64,000 nt of DNA, from positions 186,001 through 250,000 of the forward strand of contig JAHLKF010000020.1 in the NCBI GenBank assembly GCA_025558075.1. The letters are read 5' to 3'. Below are positions 7,617 through 25,640 of the stretch, in pieces; position 1 is the stretch's first letter, and the number at the start of each line of letters is the position of its first letter. The notes beneath the pieces are model-generated. The model was not told the DNA's origin, made no database searches, and saw only the letters and a program-made list of their open reading frames with translations. A program made the translations under genes and the position numbers. Source of the stretch: Gaertneriomyces semiglobifer (taxonomy: Eukaryota; Chytridiomycota; Chytridiomycetes; Spizellomycetales; Spizellomycetaceae).

Positions 7617-10600
7617 ATGCAGATCAGGTACTGATCTTTGTGTACTGACTGGGATACCCGCGGTAACGCCATATTGACGAGAATCACATCCAAATGTAGG
7701 CATCTCAAGACGATACAATCTCCAACCGACCCGCCTCTGCGAGTGACGGCATTAGCGTGGACTCCCAGCAATCAAAAGTTGGCAGTCGCCACTAGCGACC
7801 GTGTTATTCAGCTTTTTGATGAGACCGGGGAACGAAAAGATCGCTTTGCAACCAAGCCCGGGGACCCAAAGGTAACATTTCCATGATTGCAATGGTACGT
7901 CGTCCAAATGCTGAATGGGAATAAGCATGTTTAATAGGCTCCTAAACCTTATTACATATGTGGTCTGGTGTTTTCCCCCGACTCCACTAAACTCGCCGTA
8001 GCCCAATCGGACAATGCGGTCTTTGTTTACAGACTGGGCTTGGAATGGGGTGAGAAGAAATCCATCGTAAATAAGTATATTCAGAACGCGGAGATTACGT
8101 GCTTAGCATGGCCCCGAGAGCAACCAAATGCAATTGTATTTGGTATGATGGACGGCAAGGTGGGGGGCAGGGTCAGTTAATTCCCAGTTTTTCGTGCTCA
8201 AACTTCCTTACAGGTTCGAATGGGGAATCTGAAGACCAACAAAGCAGCCACATTGTATCAAGCAGACACGTGTGTTCTTTCTATTGCCAGTAGTTTAGAT
8301 GGCCATGCTATCATCAGCAGCCACATGGACGGCTCGATCAATCGATTTTTCTTTGATGACGGCATATCGGGTGCGTCCCAGGGTAAATTTGCTTTCTACA
8401 AAGGCGCACCAATAGCAATAGGGTGGGGAGAAAGCATTGTGGTAGCAGGAAATGATAAAACCATTGCGTTTTACGACAACGATGGCCGAGTACTGCAGGA
8501 ATTTGATTACAGCCGAGATGAAGAGGAGCAAGACTTCACTGTTGCGGAGTTCAGTCCCAGTGGGCAAAGCGTTGTTGTTGGCGGCTTAAACAGATTTTAT
8601 GTGTTCAACTTCTCCACGACTAGTGGGCAGTGGGAAGAAGCGCCAGCCAAAATCATCGAAAACTTTTATGTCACTACAGCCCTATCATGGAAACCCGACG
8701 GCTCAAGGCTTGTTGCGGTAATTACCCCGGGTTATAGCTGAATGCCCATCATACTTACCTACGTTTATCTCAGGGTAATATGTCTGGTGCAGTAGAGCTC
8801 TTCGATTGTTGCCTTCGTCGCTCGCGATACAAGGGCAAATTCGAATTCACGTATGTCTCGCCGAGCCAAGTGATAGTGAAACGCTTATCAACCGGTTCGA
8901 GAATCGTGCTCAAGTCGCATTACGGTTACGAGATTGAAAAGGTCAACATTTTTCGAAATCAGTACCTTATAGCGAACACCGCAGATACTCTACTCATGGG
9001 AGACCTCGCCACTTGTAAGCTCAGCGAGATACCTTGGCAAAACACCGGGCAAGAGAGATACTACTTTGAGAACCCTAACGTATGCATGGTATTTAATGCC
9101 GGCGAGTTATCGCTGGTGGAGTACGGAGTGAACGAAATACTAGGATCATGCAGGACTGAGTACACGAGCCCGCATCTCGTCAGTGTACGCATCAACGAGC
9201 GTAAGGCGGATGAAGATATCAAGAAAGTGGCGTACTTGATTGACCTACAAACGATTGACATCCTTGATTTGAACACTGGCATTAAAGTTGCAACCATGAG
9301 CCACGATTGCCGGGTGGACTGGCTGGAGCTGTCTGGAAAAGCAAATAAGCTTCTCTTTCGGGACAAGAAAAGGCAGTTACATCTTTACGATGTTGCCTCT
9401 CAAAGGCGGACCACTTTGCTGAACTTTTGCAGCTATGTTCAATGGGTCCCGTATAGTGATGTCGTTGTTGCTCAAAATCGCGGCAATTTATGCATATGGT
9501 ACTCGATCGATTCTCCAGAAAGAGTGACCATGTTTCCAATCAAAGGGGAGGTCGAAGACATTGAACGTGCCGACGGAAAGACAGAGGTGATTGTGGACGA
9601 GGGCGTCAATACTGTTTCTTACACTCTAGACGAAGGTCTCATCGAGTTTGGAACGGCCCTTGACGACAAGGATTATGACCGCGCGGTCGGGCTGTTGGAA
9701 ACGTTAGAATTGACGCCTGAAACGGAAGCGATGTGGAAAAGCCTCAGTCAGGTCGCTCTAAAAGACCGTGATCTTGCGATTGCTGAAAGATGTTTTGCCG
9801 CATTGGGAGATGTGGCAAGCACGCGATACCTACATCAGATATCTGTCATGACGGAAGAGACGTTTCAAAATCAGCATGGTGATGCCGTACAGCACTACGC
9901 CGTGAAGGCCAGACTTGCTATGCTGGATAAACACTTCAAAATAGCGGAAGCGATATTTCTGGATCAAGGCAAGATCGATGAAGCCATGAACATGTACCAA
10001 ACGTTGCACCAGTGGGAATTATCCATCAAGCTTGCGGAGAGCAAGAATCATCCGCAACTTGAGACTTTGAAGAGAAATTATCTTCAGTGGCTCTTGGAAT
10101 CCGGCCAAGAAGACAAGGCAGGAGAATTGAAGGAAGCCGATGGGGATACGACAGCGGCAATCAATCTCTACCTGAAGGCTGGGATGCCGGCAAGGGCTGC
10201 TAATTTGCTTCAATCCAGTCAGTTGTTGTCCAATAGTGACCTTACCGAAAGGGTTGCTGATGCGCTGCTCCGACAGGGTTTGTACGAAAAGGCCGGCGAA
10301 CTTTTGGAGAAGCTTGGGCACTCAGAGCGGGCTTTGGATGCTTATAAGCGTGGGAAAGTGTTCAGATGCGCTATTGAACTTGCTCGCACGATGTTTCCGC
10401 AAGAAGTGGTCAACCTGGAAGAGCAGTGGGGGGACTATTTGGTGTCCTGCAAACGGACAGATAACGCCATTAGTCACTACATCGAAGCCGGAAAGTCTTT
10501 GAAAGCGGTAGAGGCTGCTATCTCCGCGAGGCAGTGGAAAAAAGCGGTTGCAATTGTGGATTCCCTTCAACCCCCTGAAAAAGGGCAGCCGTACTTTTTA

Positions 10601-13448
10601 AGGCTTGCGGCTCATTTTGCGGAGAACCACGAGTATCAATTAGCGGAGCGGTATTACGTGATGGCTGCAAAACCTCAAGAGGCTGTCGAAATGTACACAC
10701 GCGCCAGCAGATGGGAAAACGCCCATGCTCTGGCTACTACATATATGTCCGCCGACGAGGTTGCTCTATTGTATATTTCGCAAGCCAGAGATTTAGAAAA
10801 TCAAGGGAACCTAAAAGACGCAGAAAAGATATACCTTACCGTCAAGGAGCCGGATTTAGCCATTAATATGTATAAGAACCATCGACTCTACGACGATATG
10901 ATCCGCCTGGTGACAGCGCATCACAAGGACCTCTTGATTGAAACACATTTGTATCTAGCGAAGACACTCGAAACTGAGGGTAACCTTAAACAGGCGGAGC
11001 AGCATTACATTGAAGGGCAAGACTGGAAATCAGCCATAAACATGTACTGTGCAAGCAGCATGTACGAAGACGCATATCGCGTAAGTGCACATTCCATTAG
11101 TCCACTGACTGCATCACTTGTGCTAAGGCTGCCGACGTTCTTTAGATTGCGAAGGCCTACGGTGGCCCAAGCGCTTCCAAACAAGTTGCTTACTTGTGGG
11201 CAAGGTCGTTAGGAGGCGAATCAGCTGTTAAGCTTCTCAGTAAGCTAGGTTTGCTGGATGCCGCGATTGATTTTGCAACAGAGAATGGTGCATTCGAGTT
11301 CGCATTTGAGCTTAGCCGCTTTGCTGACAAGTTCAAGCTGGCTGACGTTCATTACAAACATGCGATGTTTTTGGAGGACGAAGGGCGCTTTAAGGAAGCG
11401 CAGCAAGCCTTTGAACTTGCAGGAAAACCTAAGGAGGCTATACTTATGTACATCCACAACGAAGACTGGGATGCCGCATTGCGAGTTGCTGAGGTGTATG
11501 ATCCTGGCAGCCTGCCGGAAGTCCTTGTGGGACAGGCGCGGGTGGCGTTCGACCGAGGCGATTATGCTAAAGCTGAAGCCTTACTACTTCGTGCGCAGCA
11601 CCCAGAAGTGGCTGTCAAACTCTACCGGGACAAAAAGATGTGGAAGGAAGCTCTGCAGTTTGCAAAGGAGTACTTGCCCAGTAAAGTGGCGGAAATTAAC
11701 ATTGAGCATGAAAACTCCAAACTTGGCAATAACGTTGATGGCGGCGGCGACATGCTCAAAGCAGCGAGAATAGCAGAGCAGCAACAGAACCACTCTCAAG
11801 CAGTTGACTTGTATTTGAACCTTAGTCCCAACTTTCTTGGTGATGCAGATGCTCTACAGGAAGCATGGGAAAAGGCAGTTGAGCTGGCTGTGAAGTTCAC
11901 CCCAGAACGCGGAAGGACTGTGATCGAGGCAGTATGCGCAAAACTGAGCAGCATCAATCGACATGGTGTTGCAGCAGATTTGTATACCGGCATGGAAATG
12001 TACAAGGAAGCAATCGATGCGTACATTATGGGTGGCTTATGGGAGAAGGCGAGGCAGCTTTTAGTTTTCGCTCCAACATACAGTGCTTATGTGGAAAATG
12101 CTTATGCTGCTCACTTGAAAACCGGCGGTTACACCGATGCCCTGGTAGCCGTAGATGCGATCGCTGCGCTGGATACTTATGCTCGAAGAGAGGAATGGGA
12201 CAGATGCTTGGAGACCGCTCAGGCACAGGTACGCAGGCGATCATCAATATGGGACAGCCGGGATCTTTTCATAAAGTAAAATCCAGGGTATGCCAGCTCT
12301 TGCGAAATATGTCAATATTTACGCTGGCAGCATGCTCAAGCAGCAACGGTACGGTGAACTCCTGTCAAAGATCGTGCGCTACCGGATTCCGTTGTCATCG
12401 GAAAGCTCGGACATGTACTCGCGGATAAGCTCGGAAATCCTTCGAACCGGACATTCAGAGGACATTCACGTCCTGAGAGACTTACTATGGGATTTGGTAT
12501 GGCACCATTTATGAGATGAACATGTTGTGGCACTAACTGGCTTGGCGGTGAAGGTTAATGAAGTGCCAACAATGGCCGACGACAGCCTCAGCGAATACCT
12601 ATTGATTGCCCATTTGCATGCTTTACGACAATATTGCTCGCAGAAAAAAGGACTTGCGTATTTTGCTGCCAAGCAATCGATATCTCTTTTGCGATATACC
12701 GATATTCTGCCGCCTGATCGCATATTCTTTGAAGCCGGCGAAGCAGCCAAGGTGTCTTTGCCTACGTCAATTTAATTGCAATGCGTAACCAGTCTAATCA
12801 GGCGGTGAGAACAGGAATGTGGCATGACAAACATGGCTTTTCTTTGCTGGAACCGCTTTCTAGACATCAGCGATGCCATCGACGAAGGTGAAGCCACGCT
12901 GCAGGACAGCCGAGACTTCGCAGATACGGATATTCCCTCGGAGGTTGAACTGCCTCTCCAGAGCATAACGGTATGCCAATTTTGATTGATAGCATATCCG
13001 TGCTGATGTTGACGCACATCCATAAGAGCAATAAAAGGGAGGAGGTCCGGGACTGGGTGTTACAGCTTTCTTTGGATCAACAAGTGAAACGCGATCTTAA
13101 TCGCCGACAATGTGGAAGCTGCGGCGAAGACATATACGAAGCCGCTCTGTCTTGCCGCAATTGTCAATATATCTGGGCACCGTGCATCGTCACAGGTACT
13201 ATACTGTCGTGGCACTAGCTTTCCGCTTGCATCCTCACAACGCAATGTACAGGCTACCCGATTTTGCAGAGCAGTGTGAATTGCACCAGTTGCAACCGTG
13301 CCGCGAACAAGGATGATTGGAACAAATATGTTGCGAGCGAGAAGGTTAGTAGAAGCCATCAGTTGTTTTTGAAAGCTGTCATTAAATTGCTTTGGATTAG
13401 GCGTGCCCATGGTGTCGGAAACAGCAAAACCCGCAGTATTTTGCGTAA
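7617..13448 (+). CDS. IFT172: intraflagellar transport protein 172
   Basis: Large peripheral subunit of the IFT-B train, needed to build and turn around cargo at the flagellar tip. About 11 exons; the first codes only MQIR (7617-7627) before a 72-nt intron. Main exons: 7700-7871, 7938-8159, 8214-8717, 8774-11080, 11146-12228, 12287-12496, from 12554, then short ones to the TAA at 13446-13448. The N-terminal half is WD40 repeats (for example [38 protein letters not shown]); from about 9650 on it is TPR-like helices ([41 protein letters not shown]). The end keeps [10 protein letters not shown] and adds paired cysteines CGSC, CRNC, CTSC and CPWC. Order and spacing follow the whole family length (about 1,750 residues). 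Strong evidence for a flagellated organism. Confidence 0.96.
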
Positions 13449-15428: not shown

Positions 15429-15433
15429 AAAAT
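15429..15433. repeat. target-site duplication of element A, left copy (AAAAT)
   Basis: Five bases immediately before the 5' LTR; the identical AAAAT follows the right-hand LTR at 25641-25645. This shows the two outer LTRs belong to one insertion event. Confidence 0.75.
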
Positions 15434-15650
15434 TGTTGGAAAACAATGAGCATGGACTGTGCTAGAACATTCTGGAAGGTGCCACCTAGATAGAAGTTTC
15501 TGTAGGAAGGTGCCATCACAGATATATTATCAGTGTGTGATAAGGATTTGTAATTCTCTGTTATAAAAGGAGGGGTCCTCTCAGGACTTCTCCTGGCTAA
15601 GATTAAGGTAGACACCTACAATACATTGGTATTCAAACCTATCTTCAATA
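15434..15650 (+). repeat. LTR A1 (5' LTR of element A)
   Basis: 217 bp, starts TGTTGGAAAACAATG and ends CTATCTTCAATA. It holds a TATA box (TATAAAA at 15562-15568), so the RNA start is probably just downstream. By eye it differs from the right-hand LTR at about two positions, which means the element is young. Confidence 0.88.
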
Positions 15651-15666
15651 GGTTATGAGCCCCGAG
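15651..15666 (+). promoter_or_regulatory. primer-binding site of element A (half tRNA-iMet type)
   Basis: GGTTATGAGCCCCGAG directly follows the 5' LTR. Its reverse complement CTCGGGGCTCATAACC has the CAU anticodon region of initiator tRNA-Met, as in Drosophila copia and yeast Ty5, which prime from a tRNA cleaved in the anticodon loop. Confidence 0.75.
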
Positions 15667-15732
15667 TAGTTAGACTCTGAGCTATATCAAGGACAGCCTA
15701 CTTGCCTTTATATTTGCCACCTGACTGCCAGC

Positions 15733-17512
15733 ATGTCTGACTCAGACACCAAGTTCACCATGAAGAAGTTCAATGGAACAAACTTCCACCTATGGAAGTT
15801 CAAGATGGAGATGGTGCTGAAGGAGAAAGGACTCTGGGGCTTTGTCAGTGGAGAGGAGGAAGTGGATGAGTATGAATCCAGCAGGGATTACAAGAGAAAA
15901 GCAGAGAGAGCCCTTGCAGTGATTGTTTTGGCTTTGAATGACACCCAACTTGGTCACATTCAAACTGCTACAACTGCCAAGGAAGCCTGGAACAAGCTTG
16001 TTGTAAGGGGGTCCCGGTGACATACACGTCATAGGGATACCCTAACCAGGGCGCGCGCTATGACACGGGTTCTTATCCATATCAGTGCATACACGTGCGT
16101 CATGTGCCCATGAGCACGTGACCCATGTGACTGGGCGCCCTAACACCCGACACGTGACCTTTTCCGTCGGGTGGTTCTCTTATGCTGGGCATTCAACTGT
16201 ACTCTTAGAACCTTAGACTTGAATACACATAAGCTTATTAGAAGGACCAGAGCCTCAGCAGGATCCTCTGCAACAAAGCTCAGGAAGGTACATGAAGGAG
16301 AAGGTCTTGCCAACAGACTTTACCTCAGGAGAAAGTTTCTCACATTCAAGATGGAGGGAGGATCCATGCTTGATCACATCAACAAGATGAAAGCCCTTGC
16401 TCAACAACTGGAGTCTATCAGTGCCCCTATATGTGAGGAGGATCAAGTTATCACCTTGCTCTACAGTCTGCCTGAAAGCTATGAGGGTTTGATTGTGGCT
16501 TTGGAGGCTAGAGAGGTGGAAGATCTGACATGGGAGTATGTAACAGGAAGACTGTTGCATGAAGAGTTGAGAAGGAAGGACTCTGGTAAAGAAGAAGCTG
16601 GAGCTCAGAAAGCATTCAAAGCTGCCCACAACCCCAATAACAAGAGGAAGGGCGAATGTCACTATTGCCAGAAGCCTGGACACTACCAGCATGAATGCAA
16701 GAAGAAGCAGCATGATGATAAAAACAGCAGTGGGAGCGCAAATGCTGCATCTGAAAGCAAGAAAAAGGTGGATTTTCTCTTTATGGCAAGGGAAAATGAT
16801 GGATACAAACCAACTGGATGGATTGTGGACTCTGGAGCATCCCAACACATGAGTGCCAATAAGAATTTGTTCCAAAGTTATCAGGATATGGAACCAAAGG
16901 ACATTATACTTGCTGATAACCGCTCTGTTAAGGCTATTGGACAGGGAACTGTGTCTTTGAAAGATGGTATCAAGCTCAGGGATGTGTGGTATGTCCCCAA
17001 ATTGGAAAAGAACCTTATCTCAGTCAGGAAAACCACTCAAAATGGTTTAAAAGTCGAATTTCTGGACTCTGGATGTGTCATTAAGGCTGCTGATGACACT
17101 ACAGTACTCACAGCCTCATTGGATGGGGGCTTATATGTGACAGACATTAGCAACCATGCAGCTGTTGCAGTTACCAACAACCTGGAACTCTGGCACCAAA
17201 GACTAGGACATTTGAATGATGCCAGCATGCGAAAATTACAACAGAGAGGACATTTGGGAGCCCTGGAGACTGCTCCTAGCATGCCTCTATGTGAAGCATG
17301 CACTTTTGGAAAAATTACTAGAGCCAATTTTCGATCAAACACCCCCAAAAGAACCAGAAATGTCTTAGAAAAGGTGCACTCAGACATATGTGGACCTATG
17401 AGCAAGCCTGGAAGAACTGGAGAGCTGTATTTCATCACATTCATTGATGACAGCAGCTCTGCCACTGCTGTATTCCTAATGAAGCGAAAATCTGAAGCTC
17501 TGACTGCATTTC
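15733..17512 (+). pseudogene. element A gag, protease and N-terminal integrase, interrupted
   Basis: Starts at ATG 15733 (MSDSDTKFTMKKFNGTNFH). Gag runs to EAWNKL, where a 277-bp solo B LTR interrupts it, and resumes with RKVHEGEGLANRLYL. A CCHC zinc knuckle (CHYCQKPGHYQHEC, near 16660), an aspartic protease motif (WIVDSGASQH, near 16825) and the integrase zinc-binding and first catalytic region (LWHQRLGHL, near 17190; HSDICGP, near 17380) follow. Integrase is cut at KSEALTAF by an LTR (ATTTC duplication at 17508-17512). Protein coding is clean apart from the insertions, so the damage is recent. Confidence 0.85.
15999..16275 (+). repeat. solo LTR of family B inside gag of element A
   Basis: 277 bp, TGTTGTAAGGGGG...CTCTGCAACA with TGTTG/CAACA termini, flanked by the direct duplication AAGCT (15994-15998 and 16276-16280). 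Removing the LTR and one duplication restores the gag frame. Strongly similar to the LTRs of complete element B. Confidence 0.88.
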
Positions 17513-17729
17513 TATTGAAGATAGGTTTGAATACCAATGTATTGTAGGTGTCTAGCTTAATCTTAGCCAGGAGAAGTCCTGAGAGGACCCCTCCTTTTAT
17601 AACAGAGAATTACAAACCCTTATCACACACTGATAACATATCTGTGATGGCACCTTCCTACAGAAACTTCTATCTAGGTGGCACCTTCCAGAATGTTCTA
17701 GCACAGTCCATGCTCATTGTCTTCCAACA
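17513..17729 (-). repeat. LTR A2 (reverse orientation, at inversion breakpoint)
   Basis: 217 bp, reverse complement of the A LTR: begins TATTGAAGATAGG and ends TCTTCCAACA. On the left it abuts integrase at ATTTC; on the right it abuts the polypurine tract and 3' end of the element's own pol. It is therefore a hybrid of the solo LTR that hit integrase and the original 3' LTR. Confidence 0.85.
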
Positions 17730-17738
17730 CTCCCCCTC
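17730..17738 (-). promoter_or_regulatory. polypurine tract of element A
   Basis: On the minus strand the bases GAGGGGGAG precede the LTR directly; such purine runs prime plus-strand DNA synthesis in LTR retrotransposons. It confirms that this LTR edge is the true 3' LTR side. Confidence 0.6.
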
Positions 17739-19382
17739 AATGAGCATTCCCTTCAACTAATCCCATTCCAGCTCTAAGTTTGATGAACTGGTCTCTTGGT
17801 AAAGGTTTGGTAAGTGTGTCAGCAATCAAGTCCTGAGAGGGTAGGTGCTGAAGCTTGATAGTACCACTTTCCACAGCCTCTCTAATGAAGTGGAAGCGGA
17901 TATCTATGTGTTTTGAGCGATCATGATGAGCTGGATTGGTGCTCATGGCTATAGAACCTTGGTTGTCACCATAAATGACTGTTGGTTGTTTGGTGTCCCA
18001 TTGACCAAGATCTTGCAAAAGTGTCCTGAGCCACATAGCCTCCTTAGCAGTGTTGGTAAGGGCCATATACTCTGCCTCAGCAGTAGATAGGGCGACTGTA
18101 GGCTGTTTTTTGCTTGCCCAGGCCACTGGTGAAGTCCCCAGTTTGAAGAAATAACCAGTGGTTGATTTCCTGGTATCAATATCTCCCCAATCAGCATCAG
18201 AGTAGCCAACCAGCTCCCCCTTGCTGTCTGCACCACCCAGCTTGAGTTTCAAAGCATTTGTACCTTTTAAATAGCGAATTATTCTTTTGACAGCACTCCA
18301 GTGAGCTTGTCCAGGGTTGGCCATATACTGGGAAACTTGGCTGATGGCAGCAGCCAAGTCAGGTCTGGTGCCAAGCATGGCGTAGATCAAGCTCCCAACT
18401 GCTTCCTTATAGGGAACTGAAGCCATGGCGAGTTTTTCTTCATTTGTACTGGGTTGATCCTCCTTGGTAAGGTGCTTTCCAGTCTTCATTGGTGTAGAAA
18501 CAGGTGTGGAGGCATCCATGTTGAATTTGGCCAGGACCTTGTTGATGTACAGTTGTTGGGAAAGGAAGATGGCCTTGTCAGAACGCTCCCTAGTGACTTG
18601 TATGCCCAGAAAATACTCCAGTGGCCGCAAATCTGTCATCTTGAACTTGCTGGACAGCTGGTTCTTGAGTTGTCCTATGGCTTCCATGTTGTTACCAGCC
18701 ATAATCAGGTCATCCACATAGATTACCACATAGATCTTGATGTTGTCCTTCTGGAGCACATATAAACAATGATCAGCAACGCTTCTTTTGAATCCCAGAG
18801 CGTTCAGTTCTTTGTTGATCACTCTGTTCCACTCCCTTCCAGACTGCTTAAGTCCATATAGGGTCTTGTGCAGCAGGCACACCAAGTTGGGACCCTTCAT
18901 ATATCCCTCAGGTTGTTCCATATAGATAACCTCTTGCAAAACTCCGTTCAAATAGGCAGTTTTAACATCCATTTGATGTATCTCCAAGTCTTCCATGGCT
19001 GCAATTGCTAAGACTAGTCTGACAGTGTCAAACTTAGCAACTGGGGCAAAGGTCTCAGTAAAGTCAATTCCAGGCGTTTGGGAGTATCTTTTGGCGACTA
19101 ATCTGGCTTTGTAGCGTTCAACAGTCCCATCTGACTTGAGTTTGAGCTTGTATACCCATTTGCATCCAATAGCCTTCCTATCAGGTGGCAGTGGAACAAG
19201 TTTCCAGGTGTTGTTGCTCATCAGGGAGGCATACTCCGCATCCATAGCCTTGATCCACTTGTCAGCATCCTTACTGGTAATTGCTTACTGGTAAGTTTGT
19301 GGTTCCTGAACTACAGAACTTGCAGCTAAGGCATAGTAAGCGAGTTGAGCCTTGTTCAGGGCCCACCAGCTTCCAGGGGGCA
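17737..19382 (-). pseudogene. element A reverse transcriptase and RNase H
   Basis: C-terminal part of the copia polyprotein. Visible motifs: WKLVPLPPDRKAIGCKWVYK and RYKARLVAKRYSQ (RT start), HQMDVKTAYLNG, VIYVDDLIMAG with the YVDD catalytic box, and RNase H signatures YSDADWGDIDTRKSTTGYFF and STAEAEYMALT. The frame is open from the TGA at 17737-17739 back to 19284; an in-frame TAA at 19285-19287 sits in a short local duplication (TTACCAGTAAG twice). The remainder up to 19382 is broken by element B (CACCT duplication at 19383-19387). Confidence 0.85.
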
Positions 19383-19387
19383 CACCT

Positions 19388-19665
19388 TGTTGCAGAGGGA
19401 TCCTGCTGATTCTCTGATCCTTCTAATAAGCTTATGTGTATTCAAGTCTAAGGTTCTAAGAGTACAGTTGAATGCCCAGCATAAGAGAACCACCCGACGG
19501 AAAAGGTCACGTGTCGGGTGTTAGGGCGCCCAGTCACATGGGTCATGTGCTCATGGGCACATGACGCACGTGTATGCACTGATATGGATAAGAACCCGTG
19601 TCATAGCGCGCGCCCTGGTTAGGGTATCCCTATGACGTGTATGTCACCGGGACCCCCTTACAACA
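19388..19665 (-). repeat. 3' LTR of element B
   Basis: 278 bp, starting on the plus strand with TGTTGCAGAGGGATCC and ending CCCCCTTACAACA. By eye it differs from the other LTR of the element at about four positions, which indicates recent insertion. Confidence 0.9.
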
Positions 19666-19675
19666 CTCCCCCCTC
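19666..19675 (-). promoter_or_regulatory. polypurine tract of element B
   Basis: GAGGGGGGAG on the minus strand lies directly next to the 3' LTR, the standard position for the plus-strand primer. Confidence 0.6.
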
Positions 19676-19757
19676 GGTGCATGCACGACATTTCCTGCAA
19701 ACTGCCCGACACCTTCAGCAACTGTTCAGTGCTTATTGTCAGCAGTGTCAGGCATTG

Positions 19758-22679
19758 TTAGCAACCTGTCAGCAACTTGTCAGAAGCGTCGGACATATGG
19801 AGACCCATGCGAGGATGCATGCTATTCAGAGCAGGAGCAGCTAGGGCCTTGGTAAGTCCGTCAGCCAGCTGGTCATTAGTGGACACATAGCAGAGGGCGA
19901 TTTCCTGGGTCTGATGGACCTTTTCGCGGATGAAGTGATGACGGAGATCGATGTGTTTAGTGCGATTGTGATTTACAGGGTTGTTGACAAGTTTGATGGC
20001 TGCCTGGTTGTCCTCGTACACTGTTAGAGCGCCATATGTGCCGGGTTCAGTGCCGGAAAGGATGGAATTCTGGGTGTCATTGCGTGGAAAATGCTCGAGG
20101 AGCGCGATCATCAGTCGACGGAGCCAGACTGCCTCTTTGGCGGCCTCAGCTAATGCAATGTATTCCGCTTCTGCTGTAGATTGTGCTGTGCAGTTCTGAA
20201 GCTTAGATGCCCACAAAATAGTGCCTCCGTTCAGCAAGAAGAGGTACGCCGACGTCGAGCGTCGGTTCTCGGCATTTGCAGCGAAATCGGCATCAGAATA
20301 ACCATGTAGAGAGGATACTCCCCCGTCTCGAGGACCATACAAGAGCTTGAGATTGCGAGTGCCTTTTACATAGCGGAGGACACGGCGGGCAGCACTCAAG
20401 TGCTGTTCAGTGGGTTTCGACAGGAAACGGGACAGTTTGGAGATTGCGAAGGCAAGATCGGGCTGCGTGGCAATGGTAAGATACATTAAGCTTCCAATTA
20501 TTGACTGATAAAGCTTTTGATCAGCCAGGACGGCGTCGTCGGTGGCAGCGACAAGCGATAAGCTGGGCGACAGTGGAACAGTGACAGATGTGGCATCGGC
20601 AAGGCCATAGCGAAGGAGCATGTCATCAATGTATTTGCCTTGGTTCAGTGTCAGTGTGTCAGCAGTGCGTGTGACTTCAATGCCGAGAATGTACGAAATC
20701 TCCCCCATGTCCTCCATCGCGAAACGCCGGGCAAGACCGTCCTTGATGGACCGCATGCGGGCCGTCGTGGAGCAGATGGTGAGGTCATCGACGTACAGGA
20801 CAATGATGTCAGGTGTGCCGCCGGCAACGGGACGAATGTACAGCGCGGTGTCGAGAACCGTGGGTTGGAAACCGACGGACTTCAGATAAGTGTCAAGTGT
20901 TTGGTTCCATAAGCGCGGTGACTGCTTTAACCCATAGATCGAACGTAGGAGTTTAACGTACGACCCGTCGGGGAGTTGCATATGAATGTCGGTGTTGATT
21001 ACAGCGTTCAGGAATGCCGTGAGGACATCCATTTGGTGGACGACAAGGCCGAAGAGCTGAGAGAGAGCCAATAGCAGGCGGAGCGTGCTGAACTTGACGA
21101 CCGGGGCATAGGTTTCATTGAAATCGAGACCTGGGCGCTGGGTAAACCCACGGGCAACAAGGCGGGCCTTATACTTCTTGATGGACCCGTCCGGGTGATG
21201 TTTAATCTTGAAAACCCACTTAGAATCGATGGCATAAGCATCAGACGGCAAGGCGTCGACGGGCATCCACGTCTGATTGTCAAGTAAGGACTGGAGCTCT
21301 TTATCGATGGCCTGCTGCCAGGCATGACGATCAGGTGAGCGCAGCGCTTGCTTATAAGTGACGGGTTCCCAGGCACGGGGGCCGTCAAGAGCGGATGCTA
21401 CTAATGCCTCGACTGTAGGTGCAATCGCCGGGGATTGGTGCTTACGAGCAAAATATTCATCGACAACGGGCAAGCTGTGTAAGTTGAACGCGTCGTTCCA
21501 TTCAGGTTCAGAATACCCGACGTACTTAACAAAATATTGATGCTCCCCCGTCGGTGCGATCCGTTCATCAACAATGTACTCGACTTCAAAGACTTCATCA
21601 TCGGGAGCGTCGGGAGCAGGATCGACATAGTTGGTTTCATCGAACGTGACGTCGCGGGACCGATGGATGCGCTGTGTCAGTGGGTCATAGAACCGATAAC
21701 CCGTGGAGTCAATGTACCCGATCAGTTTCATGCGACGAGCCCGGGGTTCGAGCTTTTTGTGGGGACGGCGTTCGACAGGGATATGAACATAAGCGCCGGA
21801 CCACAGGACCCGCAGGTTCGCCATGTCCGCGGGAGAACCATGCCATTTTTCATATGGAGTTGCATTTCTGATGGCGCGGGACGGGGTGCGCTGACGGAGG
21901 TAGTTGACAGCAACAACAATTTCCCCCCACAAGTGCTGAGGTATGTGACTTGACAGCATGACCGCCCGGGTTTGTGTCATTAACGTCTGATTATAACGCT
22001 CGGCAATGCCGTTTTGCGCGGGAGAATATGCGTGGGTAGGACGAACCCGGGTGCCGTGCTGTCGGAGATCGCCGACAAGGGCATGACTCAGATATTCGCC
22101 GCCGTTGTCGCATCGCAGTTCAAGGATTTTGCAGCCATGGAGGTTTTCAGCATGTTGGCGGAAAGCGTGGAATTCAGCGGGGACATCGTGTTTATTTTTG
22201 ATGATGGCGACATGTGCGTATTGAGTAAGTTCGTCGATGAACGTGACAAGGTACGGGCAGTGATCGAGTGTGTCATGCTCGACTGACTGTACGTCGCTGT
22301 GGATGCGACCAAGGACGCGGGTTGCGGGTTGGGGGTTGTCATGATTGAATGGAGAGCGTCGGGACTTAGCGACACGACACCCGACGCAGGTGGCGAGGGT
22401 GCCGGGCGCGGAAATGACGTATGCGCGAAGCGCTAGTTGGAGATTAGCAGCGCTCGGATGACCGAAATGTAGATGCCAGAGCTTAAGAGTGACAGAGTCA
22501 GCAGGACTAGGAGCAGGGTCAGAGAGAGCATGTGAAGTAGGCGTTATATTTGGTGAATAAACAGTGTCATCGACAATCGCAGGTGTCGGAGGTGTCGCCT
22601 CGGCCGAATTGGTCGATTCTGGTCGATTTGTCGGAAAGTGCTGTGCCACCGTGTCGGACGCGGGAAGTTGCTGTGCCAT
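19758..22679 (-). CDS. element B pol: integrase, chromodomain-like segment, RT, RNase H
   Basis: 973 residues from the first ATG; the same frame is open upstream to 22892, so the true polyprotein is longer and separated from gag-protease by one TGA. Integrase has the zinc-binding pattern (LWHLHFGHP then CVGC, residues about 68-101) and a D-D-35-E triad (HSDV about 129, RCDNGGEY at D191, E227 in GIAERYN). A chromodomain-like stretch spans about 364-412. RT carries KYKARLVARGFTQRPG, HQMDVLTAFLNA and LYVDDLTIC (YVDD at 629-632). RNase H shows GYSDADFAANAENRRST and STAEAEYIALAEA. All catalytic motifs look intact. Confidence 0.92.
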   Translation of the reverse strand: MAQQLPASDTVAQHFPTNRPESTNSAEATPPTPAIVDDTVYSPNITPTSHALSDPAPSPADSVTLKLWHLHFGHPSAANLQLALRAYVISAPGTLATCVGCRVAKSRRSPFNHDNPQPATRVLGRIHSDVQSVEHDTLDHCPYLVTFIDELTQYAHVAIIKNKHDVPAEFHAFRQHAENLHGCKILELRCDNGGEYLSHALVGDLRQHGTRVRPTHAYSPAQNGIAERYNQTLMTQTRAVMLSSHIPQHLWGEIVVAVNYLRQRTPSRAIRNATPYEKWHGSPADMANLRVLWSGAYVHIPVERRPHKKLEPRARRMKLIGYIDSTGYRFYDPLTQRIHRSRDVTFDETNYVDPAPDAPDDEVFEVEYIVDERIAPTGEHQYFVKYVGYSEPEWNDAFNLHSLPVVDEYFARKHQSPAIAPTVEALVASALDGPRAWEPVTYKQALRSPDRHAWQQAIDKELQSLLDNQTWMPVDALPSDAYAIDSKWVFKIKHHPDGSIKKYKARLVARGFTQRPGLDFNETYAPVVKFSTLRLLLALSQLFGLVVHQMDVLTAFLNAVINTDIHMQLPDGSYVKLLRSIYGLKQSPRLWNQTLDTYLKSVGFQPTVLDTALYIRPVAGGTPDIIVLYVDDLTICSTTARMRSIKDGLARRFAMEDMGEISYILGIEVTRTADTLTLNQGKYIDDMLLRYGLADATSVTVPLSPSLSLVAATDDAVLADQKLYQSIIGSLMYLTIATQPDLAFAISKLSRFLSKPTEQHLSAARRVLRYVKGTRNLKLLYGPRDGGVSSLHGYSDADFAANAENRRSTSAYLFLLNGGTILWASKLQNCTAQSTAEAEYIALAEAAKEAVWLRRLMIALLEHFPRNDTQNSILSGTEPGTYGALTVYEDNQAAIKLVNNPVNHNRTKHIDLRHHFIREKVHQTQEIALCYVSTNDQLADGLTKALAAPALNSMHPRMGLHMSDASDKLLTGC
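21444..21590 (-). other. chromodomain-like segment within copia pol
   Basis: Residues about 364-412 of element B pol read VFEVEYIVDERIAPTGEHQY, FVKYVGYSEPEWNDAFNL and PVVDEYFARK. This follows the chromodomain plan: VExIxDxR, then (Y/F)xVKWxGY, then W-E/N...NL, then a C-terminal helix ending near a Tyr. One of the three aromatic-cage positions is less obvious (KYVGY instead of KWKGY). It sits after integrase and before RT. Confidence 0.75.
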
Positions 22680-22892
22680 CGGAGGCGCAGTGACGGCAGC
22701 GGCGGGCGCAGTCGCGGACGAATCGTGGGTGTACCGGGATGGGCGATGCGCAGTACGTGCGGACCTGCGGCGGGGATGACTGGTGTAGGCTTCATATTTA
22801 GCCGGAGAGGCGGTTGTGTACCCGGCAATAAAATAAAGTCTATTGTGACGTATGACATCAGCTACACGAGCACCCGACTTGCGATGAGTAAT

Positions 22893-24062
22893 TCACCCGG
22901 CACTAAGATCAGCCGAGAAATCTAAGGCATAACGCGACTGGGCCAATGATGCGAAAGAGAGCAGATTCCGCGGACATTCGGGAGCATAGAGCACGTCAGT
23001 AAGCTTAAGTAAACCATGACGTGTGTTGATGATTAAGGTTCCCTTGCCGTAAGCAGCGCACGTGCCAATGCCGGAGATTTGTCGGGCCGAGGGAAAAGCT
23101 TGGAATTCCATTAGAAGAAAGCGATCACGGATAATGCTGTGTGTGGCGCCCGAATCGAGAGCGATGGAGTGCGGCGCGTCACGATCAGTCGATAAGACAA
23201 GGAAGGCCTCGGGATCGGAGTCGGTGTCAGCGTCGGAGTCGGGCGGGGCGGGGTCCTCGTCGTCGTGTGCAAGTTCAGCGGCATGTGCGGCCGGGCGGGA
23301 CTGAGCGCGTTTCTTGGCGTCAATGACAAGGGGACAGTCACGAACATAGTGGGTTCCTTGGGTGCAGATGTCACAGGGACGGGCCGCCGGCCTGGGACGG
23401 CGACGGGGGTGCGTGGCCGCGGCAGCGGCAAAAGCTTCAGGGGTGCCGGGAGTTCGAGGTTTCGTGTACACAGAGGCATCCAAGTCCAGGGCGGCAATTT
23501 GTAAGGCGTCAAGGGTCTGGGTGTCAGCGGCAACTCGATTGCAAATGCGGTCACGAACCGAGGGTTTGAGACCGCAAATGTAAGTAGGGCAAACGTCGTC
23601 AGAGTCCATGTTCGGCAGGGTTAAGCGAATTTTCTCGAAAGCAGAGTTGTATTCGCCGATGGTGCCGGTTTGAGTGAGGTTTCGCAGAGCAAGGCGTTGA
23701 GAGTCCAGATAAGCAGCGGGAATGAAGCGTTGATAGAGCGCACGATGGAGGGGGTTCCACTGAGTAATAACGGCGGCTTTTGCGGCAGAGCGGTTCCACT
23801 CTTCCAGCCATATAAGGGCATGGTCGCGGAGATTGCAGACAGCGACTAAGAAAAGGTCCTCCTCAATTAGATCGGGGCGTAAGGTGTGAATCATGTTGAT
23901 GGAGCGGATGAAGGTCAACAGCCGGGGGGCGGCATCCTGGGGATTGCCGTCGAACGGGGTGATTTTCTTAAGCGTGTCGGTTAACAGTCGTTCAGCGAAC
24001 AGTGACGGAGGGTTGTCGAGGGCCGAGAATTCCTCCTTGGCACTGCGGGTCAAGCGGGCCAT
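22893..24062 (-). CDS. element B gag and protease
   Basis: 389 residues from ATG 24062 to a TGA. The N-terminal half is a typical retrotransposon gag (ITPFDGNPQDAAPRLLTFIR, YQRFIPAAYLDSQRLALRNL). A CCHC knuckle follows (CDICTQGTHYVRDC, CX2CX4HX4C), then an acidic linker and the aspartic protease motif ALDSGATHSI. Downstream VLYAPECPRNLLSFASL is the copia region that leads into integrase. The stop is in frame with pol, so either it is a recent nonsense change or it is read through. Confidence 0.88.
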   Translation of the reverse strand: MARLTRSAKEEFSALDNPPSLFAERLLTDTLKKITPFDGNPQDAAPRLLTFIRSINMIHTLRPDLIEEDLFLVAVCNLRDHALIWLEEWNRSAAKAAVITQWNPLHRALYQRFIPAAYLDSQRLALRNLTQTGTIGEYNSAFEKIRLTLPNMDSDDVCPTYICGLKPSVRDRICNRVAADTQTLDALQIAALDLDASVYTKPRTPGTPEAFAAAAATHPRRRPRPAARPCDICTQGTHYVRDCPLVIDAKKRAQSRPAAHAAELAHDDEDPAPPDSDADTDSDPEAFLVLSTDRDAPHSIALDSGATHSIIRDRFLLMEFQAFPSARQISGIGTCAAYGKGTLIINTRHGLLKLTDVLYAPECPRNLLSFASLAQSRYALDFSADLSAG

Positions 24063-24338
24063 CTAAAAAAAAGGTGTTATACACAGGCAAGGTGCAATAA
24101 GGGTCAGTTGTCGTTGAACACAGGCAGGGTGTTCAATAAGCAGTTGTCGTTGATCGCAGGCGGGGGGATCAATGGCAGTCAGGCGTCGTTAATCGCTGGC
24201 AGGGGGATTAACGGTGTCGGGAGCGTCGTATGTCGGGAAAAACAGCGTGATCGCTCGGGCAAGTGAGGAATCGTCGGTAACGGGCCGTTCCACCCGGAGA
24301 CTGAAGGGCAGAAGATAAGCAGGTGACAGCTATCGATG

Positions 24339-24354
24339 CCAGGGGCTCATAACC
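24339..24354 (-). promoter_or_regulatory. primer-binding site of element B (half tRNA-iMet type)
   Basis: On the minus strand GGTTATGAGCCCCTGG directly follows the 5' LTR. The first 13 bases equal the primer-binding site of element A and match the anticodon region of initiator tRNA-Met. Confidence 0.72.
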
Positions 24355-24632
24355 TGTTGCAGAGGGATCCTGCTGATGCTCTGATCCTTCTAATAAGCTT
24401 ATGTGTATTCAAGTCTAAGGTTCTAAGAGTACAGTTGAATGCCCAGCATAAGAGAACCACCCGACGGAAAAGGTCACGTGTCGGGTGTTAGGGCGCCCAG
24501 TCACATGGGTCACGTGCTCATGGGCACATGACGCACGTGTATGCACTGATATGGATAAGAACCCGTGTCATAGCGCGCGCCCTGGTTAGGGTATCCCTAT
24601 GACGTATATGTCACCGGGACCTCCTTACAACA
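24355..24632 (-). repeat. 5' LTR of element B
   Basis: 278 bp; reverse complement starts TGTTGTAAGGAGGTCC. Pairs with the LTR at 19388-19665. The word CACGTG occurs in it (plus strand, near 24476 and 24511) but its role is unknown. Confidence 0.9.
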
Positions 24633-25423
24633 CACCTTTGTTGCTTCTGGTGGAAGTCCCAATAGTAGGAGCTGCTTGTAGGGGGTCCTCAGAGGTTGTT
24701 GATTTGGAATCATCATTGATTTCAGCTTGTTCAGGTTCTGAATCACTCTCCTGAATGATACTGTCTGAGTGATATTCTGACTCAACATCAGGATTTTCTC
24801 CCCCTTCAGAGTTATCGCTCCAGACATGTAATTCTAAGTGTTGCTGTGCGTTGTTTTGTTGTTTCCAGTGTTTCCAAAGCATGTTCTTATCAAATGCTAC
24901 ATTTTGGCTGATGACCAACTTTTCAGCAACTGGGTCCCAGAGCTTGTGGGCCTTGTGCTCACTGTCAGGGCCCAAATAAACACATTTCTGTGCCTTTTCA
25001 TCGAGCTTTTTTCGCTTCTCCTTTGGTATTTGAGCATATGCTATGCATCCAAAGGTCCTCAGGTTTGATAAGTCCAGTTTGTTTCCAGTAAAAGCCTCAA
25101 ATGTTGTCGGGTCCCCATCCAGAGTTCGAGTTGGGCTCCTGTTTCTCACATAGGCAGCCATTAGGATGGCATCTCCCCAAAAGTCTAGTGGGGTTCCAGA
25201 ATGAATCAGTAGACACCTTGCAGTCTCAACCAAGGTTCTGTTCATTCTCTCAGCTTTGCCATTCTGTTCAGGTGTATAAGGAGCACTGAACTGTTGGGTA
25301 ATTTTCTGTTCTTGACAGTAGGCTCTGAATGCCTTGCTGGTGTACTCTGTACCATTGTCAGACTGCAGCACCTTGAGTTTCTTGCTGGTGATACCCTCAG
25401 CCCAAGCCAAGTAGCTCTGAAAT
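24633..25423 (-). pseudogene. element A integrase, C-terminal part (inverted segment)
   Basis: Reads leftward from the LTR at 25424: FQSYLAWAEGITSKKLKVLQ, SDNGTEYTSKAF (second catalytic Asp), QFSAPYTPEQNGKAERMNRT (catalytic Glu), then the GKE-like C-terminal region and an acidic/Ser-rich linker ending TSTRSNKG, where element B is inserted. The first codons complete the integrase cut at 17512: the ATTTC duplication is present on both sides (GAAAT on the plus strand at 25419-25423). Confidence 0.85.
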
Positions 25424-25640
25424 TGTTGGAAGACAATGAGCATGGACTGTGCTAGAACATTCTGGAAGGTGCCACCTAGATAGAAGTTTCTGTAGGAAGG
25501 TGCCATCACAGATATGTTATCAGTGTGTGATAAGGATTTGTAATTCTCTGTTATAAAAGGAGGGGTCCTCTCAGGACTTCTCCTGGCTAAGATTAAGGTA
25601 GACACCTACAATACATTGGTATTCAAACCTATCTTCAATA
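25424..25640 (+). repeat. LTR A3 (right-hand LTR of element A)
   Basis: 217 bp, TGTTGGAAGACAATG...CTATCTTCAATA, followed by AAAAT at 25641-25645. Its left neighbour is the inverted integrase piece, so this LTR is the second product of the LTR-LTR inversion. Confidence 0.88.

Follow-up and report, generated by a model that had tools for sequence, protein, structure and literature searches.

Chromodomains at the C-terminus of integrase are carried by Ty3/gypsy chromoviruses; the cited passages of a plant survey by Neumann et al. in 2019 report them in 94% of chromoviruses but in none of the other groups studied (PMC6317226), and those of Muszewska et al. in 2011 discuss fungal chromodomains for gypsy elements (PMC3248453). 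Within Ty1/copia, Llorens et al. described in 2009 a putative integrase chromodomain in the diatom element CoDi-A and, in the passage cited, knew of none in other Ty1/copia elements (PMC2774666). To the cases known before, chromoviruses and CoDi-I, Ustyantsev et al. added Chronos from oomycetes in 2017 (PMC5348765). Here we describe a chromodomain-bearing long terminal repeat (LTR) retrotransposon, assigned to Ty1/copia, in a stretch of 64,000 nucleotides from the chytrid fungus Gaertneriomyces semiglobifer (contig JAHLKF010000020.1, positions 186,001 to 250,000; hereafter the window). A first-pass annotation of the window had treated chromodomains as a Ty3/gypsy feature, which holds for chromoviruses but is not a restriction in print, given the CoDi-A copia of 2009 (PMC2774666, PMC5348765).

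The diatom elements CoDi-A/CoDiI share with the window element the Ty1/copia order and an integrase that ends in a putative chromodomain (PMC2774666, PMC2806351). Compared by description only, they differ in their hosts, in branching with Pseudovirus and GalEa, and in that the cited passages mention no Ty3-like Gag. Chromoviruses likewise end their integrase with a chromodomain, but their reverse transcriptase (RT) is of the RVT_1 kind and precedes integrase, whereas in the window element integrase comes first and the RT is RVT_2. Chromovirus Gag is of the Retrotrans_gag/Ty3_capsid kind, like the Gag of the chromodomain-copia elements described below. The oomycete Chronos also has an integrase-linked chromodomain captured apart from chromoviruses, as may be the case here, but it is a Ty3/gypsy element with an extra RNase H (PMC5348765). 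In yeast, Ty5 and Ty1 are Ty1/copia elements whose target is set by the integrase C-terminus, through Sir4 and into silent chromatin for Ty5 and through Pol III for Ty1 (PMC5911963); they bind a host protein, whereas the window element carries a histone-reading domain instead. For copia relatives, integration into active regions has been described (PMC3248453). No chromodomain copia from fungi, or with a Ty3-like Gag, was found in the accessible passages of the open literature searched; the chromodomain copia is already known as a kind, and the host group, breadth and Gag look new within that literature.

The chromodomain of the window element

The element is complete and lies on the minus strand at window positions 19388-24632 (Table 1). 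Its assignment to Ty1/copia rests on gene order, RT family and primer site. Integrase precedes RT in pol, as the first-pass annotation had read, the RT is of the RVT_2 kind, and no RVT_1 match to P0001 was listed at E ≤ 10. Used as a probe, the primer site had three exact genomic matches, all of them tRNA-Met(cat) genes, and it pairs with the anticodon arm rather than with the 3' end of the tRNA, which suggests priming by a half tRNA-Met. Such priming from an internal part of tRNA-Met is the habit of Drosophila copia. Membership in the chromoviruses was rejected, given that integrase comes before RT and that the RT is RVT_2, not RVT_1.

The chromodomain is real. The peptide at 21444-21590 that had been called chromodomain-like is exactly pol residues 435-483, and the residues 350-420 once given for the domain must belong to another numbering, as it lies at pol 435-484. 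Pfam Chromo matches residues 435-481 of the window protein (E = 5.1e-5; 23.5 bits against a cut-off of 25.1), and the domain order is integrase core, SH3, Chromo, RT. In a six-frame search of the genome (20.9 Mb, 66 contigs), the same stretch reached 28.7 bits, above the cut-off, as did 29 further places of the element family, some of which span the first half of the profile only; 6 more places scored below it. The window copy is at the weak end of a family whose strong end is canonical (P0019, 9.3e-15; P0011, 3.8e-14). Chromo was present in all 28 chromodomain-copia proteins scanned, which had been picked for having it, and in none of 35 control copia proteins at E ≤ 0.001. At E ≤ 0.001, a profile of 14 chromodomain segments matched 78 distinct sequences of solved structure, led by CDY and HP1 (CDY1 6v41, 4.8e-19; HP1 1kna, 5.3e-16), and the window copy's 55 residues alone matched CDYL2 6v2h at 0.0013. 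The three strands and helix that the first-pass annotation had looked for are present in an AlphaFold model of residues 185-640 built from 24 sequences (mean predicted local distance difference test score, pLDDT, 80.3; predicted template modelling score 0.53), at model positions 253-261, 267-273, 280-283 and 291-301, with block pLDDT of 81-86. In a structure comparison of the model, the listed matches span the integrase core only.

Three positions, F435, Y457 and Y460, which correspond to the aromatic cage by HP1 numbering, are aromatic in 27/27, 28/28 and 28/28 proteins, one protein beginning inside the domain. A few genomic copies lack a cage residue; L075, for example, has Q at 457 and L071 has H at 460. 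The domain is predicted to be of type I, that is, HP1-like with a three-residue aromatic cage, and to bind methylated H3; for the definition of type I we follow the cited passage of PMC6317226. Across 28 genomic copies (378 pairs, which are not independent), the pooled ratio of nonsynonymous to synonymous substitution rates (dN/dS) is 0.130 in the chromodomain, 0.168 in SH3, 0.188 in the linker and 0.091 in RT, and the chromodomain is under purifying selection.

Variant copies also occur. On contig C6 (G000:C6:50091-63070 and 99437-106388), family units stand about 3.91 kb apart, with pol pieces 1-474 and 515 onward adjoining; they lack residues 475-514 and with them the C-terminal helix of the chromodomain, one unit having been examined in L077. 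In a sister copy (L003), the 1481-residue open reading frame (ORF) has a pol frame that ends in a degenerate repeat (SDTADKLL-like) and is still open.

Capsid, relatives and origin

The usual Gag of Ty1/copia, which does not define the superfamily, is PF14223 (Retrotran_gag_2). None of the chromodomain-copias matched it, and those whose Gag Pfam recognises have PF03732 (Retrotrans_gag) or PF19259 (Ty3_capsid) instead. Among the 28 members scanned, with the window copy represented by a sister copy, 15 matched Retrotrans_gag, 12 Ty3_capsid and none Retrotran_gag_2; 13 had no match to Retrotrans_gag at E ≤ 0.001; P0007, which is cut inside its gag, matched Ty3_capsid at 3.8e-5. Retrotran_gag_2 was matched by 35 of 35 controls by construction, because these were chosen as long proteins listed with that Gag, and two of them weakly matched Retrotrans_gag. 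No protein lacking a chromodomain had PF03732 without PF14223 among the matches listed (best 120 of 1094 and best 120 of 1233). Among the best 60 of 191 matches to a whole-protein profile of 17 rows were Ty3 Gag 6r22 over the capsid (1.2e-9) and, over the integrase, chain 7z0h_W (3e-32), labelled integrase and presumably that of Ty1. By profile, the chromodomain-copia capsid is of Ty3 type. Since Ty3 and copia capsids are related (cf. the relevant passage of PMC12440569), "Ty3-type" here denotes the best profile and not descent.

The window element is one of a broader set of chromodomain copias. The same two sets of best matches comprise 235 distinct proteins, 27 of which have a chromodomain (one starts inside it), or 28 with the window's; 27/235 is not a frequency, because both queries contained a chromodomain. 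Two of these relatives are proteins of another chytrid, Powellomyces hirtus, with the same architecture, so that the search of other chytrids proposed in the first-pass annotation has yielded one case. One relative labelled as from a bacterial metagenome-assembled genome was taken for mis-binning.

The trees took in copia-type rows only, without a gypsy outgroup, and within that scope the RT groups with copia relatives, as had been expected. In a FastTree analysis of 194 rows (integrase and RT-RNase H, chromodomain columns excluded), the 28 chromodomain rows split into a group of 20 (starred 99) and a group of 8 (starred 100). An IQ-TREE analysis of 64 rows (22 of the 28 chromodomain rows and, from 166 non-chromodomain rows reduced to 75 by a diversity filter, the first 42) recovered the two groups at 98 and 100 and placed all chromodomain rows on one side of one branch, with a weak support of 58. 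An earlier RT tree of 116 rows required three changes, and in an approximately unbiased test on 74 of those rows (11 with a chromodomain) one clade was not rejected (p 0.768). In the chromodomain's own tree (47 rows), the copia chromodomains are not one group and need 3 changes, at least 2 of them forced by starred branches, and none of 200 bootstrap trees had 1 change, in a tree of 54 columns where long branches meet. A single origin of the chromodomain-copias is favoured, not shown, by the polymerase trees and is unsupported by the chromodomain's own tree.

The suggestion that such an element might be a recombinant gains weight because its Gag is Ty3-like. It is conceivable, and we hold it tentatively at somewhat short of even chances, that these elements form an old, widespread and unnamed Ty1/copia lineage into which a Ty3-type Gag was exchanged and which captured its chromodomain independently of chromoviruses and CoDi-A. 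If so, a further superfamily would have come upon the same targeting solution, and the virion would be a hybrid. The elements point to a lineage that pairs a Ty3-type capsid with a Ty1-type polymerase, and finding a chromodomain in a fungal element does not suffice to annotate it as Ty3/gypsy.

Insertion context and a proposed role of the chromodomain

There are 49 matched pol stretches in the genome, some of them pieces of one copy, and most of the 46 genomic RVT_2 matches belong to this family. We grouped 41 loci into 30 insertion clusters and took 13 RVT_1 sites for gypsy. Five of the 30 clusters lie within 10 kb of an RVT_1 site, 6 within 20 kb and 9 within 40 kb, where chance would give at most 1.2%, 2.5% and 5%. 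One copy is nested in a chromodomain-bearing gypsy element and has a duplication, and the copy on C24 has an RVT_1 match in its 3' flank. The window copy, which has its own duplication, is nested between minus-strand pieces of a second copia element, whose RT and integrase flank it on opposite sides. Most copy flanks matched none of the sequences compared. Of 10 copies whose two flanks were read, 7 have perfect 5-bp target duplications, as does the window copy; four further copies had one flank read, and C63 was dropped, its LTR start not having been found. The genome also encodes an HP1 homologue, with Chromo and chromoshadow in one ORF. The clustering and nesting with other elements fit heterochromatin targeting and do not prove it.

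We consider it likely that in this Ty1/copia element, with a type I chromodomain ending its integrase and a capsid of Ty3 type by profile, the chromodomain holds insertion to silent chromatin. A half tRNA-Met would prime reverse transcription, integrase would carry the cDNA into the nucleus, and the released integrase may keep the chromodomain, which, following SH3, would bind a methylated H3 lysine, most likely K9. The intasome would then be held on silent chromatin, and new copies would land among older transposons rather than genes. Such elements offer a test of whether an integrase chromodomain suffices for heterochromatin targeting, since the domain is here joined to copia machinery.

Several points weigh against this reading. 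Taken alone, the window copy is just under the Pfam cut-off, and it reads WND where most relatives have WEP. Selection is not specific to the chromodomain, given the low dN/dS of SH3 and the linker. Three of the 11 copies with both flanks read are without a perfect duplication, and no Pre-SET (SUV39-type) methylase was found in the genome, in a search that cannot show absence. Selection against genic insertions would cluster copies with transposons too, and a control family tried for clustering gave two matches only. Binding and steering are inferred.

A true chromodomain that no longer steers might instead serve integrase folding, general nucleosome contact or evasion of silencing, with copies elsewhere having been removed. 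The similar selection on the neighbouring regions is consistent with this, as are the C6 units without the C-terminal helix, if these units move, and the clustering, for which the control family gave two matches only. However, even very diverged relatives retain the aromatic cage and an unused reader would not need it, and we think a loss of steering rather unlikely. Less probable still is a spread to fungi of the known diatom CoDi-A/CoDiI lineage, whose integrases bear a putative C-terminal chromodomain according to the cited passage (PMC2774666). The window copy's score below the cut-off could also reflect a charged integrase-RT linker that mimics a chromodomain by chance, but relatives carry the domain in the same position with E down to 9e-15, and it matches solved chromodomains, has the predicted fold and is matched by none of the 35 control copias at E ≤ 0.001; we regard such a misreading as vanishingly improbable and reject it.

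Architecture and neighbouring sequence

One stop splits the gag-protease ORF from the pol ORF in the window copy; in several other genomic copies, the two are a single frame of about 1400-1490 residues.

Table 1. Features of the chromodomain-copia element, in window coordinates
Feature	Position	Strand	Details
5' target-site duplication	24633..24637	-	AGGTG
5' LTR	24355..24632	-	278 bp, TG...CA ends
Primer-binding site	24342..24354	-	GGTTATGAGCCCC, 13 nt, adjoins 5' LTR; complementary to tRNA-Met(cat) anticodon-arm region
Gag-protease ORF	22893..24062	-	389 aa
Capsid region	23562..23846	-	Retrotrans_gag PF03732 1e-11; Ty3_capsid PF19259 8.8e-10
Pol_BBD match, protease region	22932..23159	-	4.5e-11
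Pol ORF	19758..22892	-	1044 aa; integrase, chromodomain, RT and region after RT
Integrase core (rve)	22020..22310	-	pol residues 195-291 (Pfam)
SH3-like domain, integrase C-terminal	21627..21842	-	SH3_retrovirus 2.6e-20, pol residues 351-422
Chromodomain	21441..21590	-	pol residues 435-484; cage residues F435, Y457, Y460
Reverse transcriptase	20571..21278	-	RVT_2 3.7e-59, pol residues 539-774
3' LTR	19388..19665	-	278 bp, TG...CA ends, ~98% identity to 5' LTR
3' target-site duplication	19383..19387	-	AGGTG

The copia element that hosts the window copy is rearranged (window 15430-19284 and 24625-25640): its pol pieces run along the minus strand, whereas a Gag ORF (16144-17544) is read from the plus strand. 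This Gag ORF near the window copy encodes an ordinary copia Gag. The rearranged region also contains an LTR of the chromodomain element in opposite orientation (15999-16275). A repeat of 221 bases occurs there at 15430 and 25420 and, inverted, at 17507.

Elsewhere in the genome, six contig ends (C2, C19, C30, C34, C39 and C47; L012-L017) share 3100 identical bases that hold a 367-residue ORF encoding an integrase core and, at the C-terminus, a chromodomain. In a seventh copy (L018), 1500 bases are common on one side and the other side differs. This repeat is probably another integrase-chromodomain element, perhaps a Polinton-like one, or else it marks where the assembly broke within a single long repeat. 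At window 8738-12276 there are IFT122-like TPR matches, under the family's own cut-off, to a flagellar transport protein, which fits a zoospore-forming fungus.
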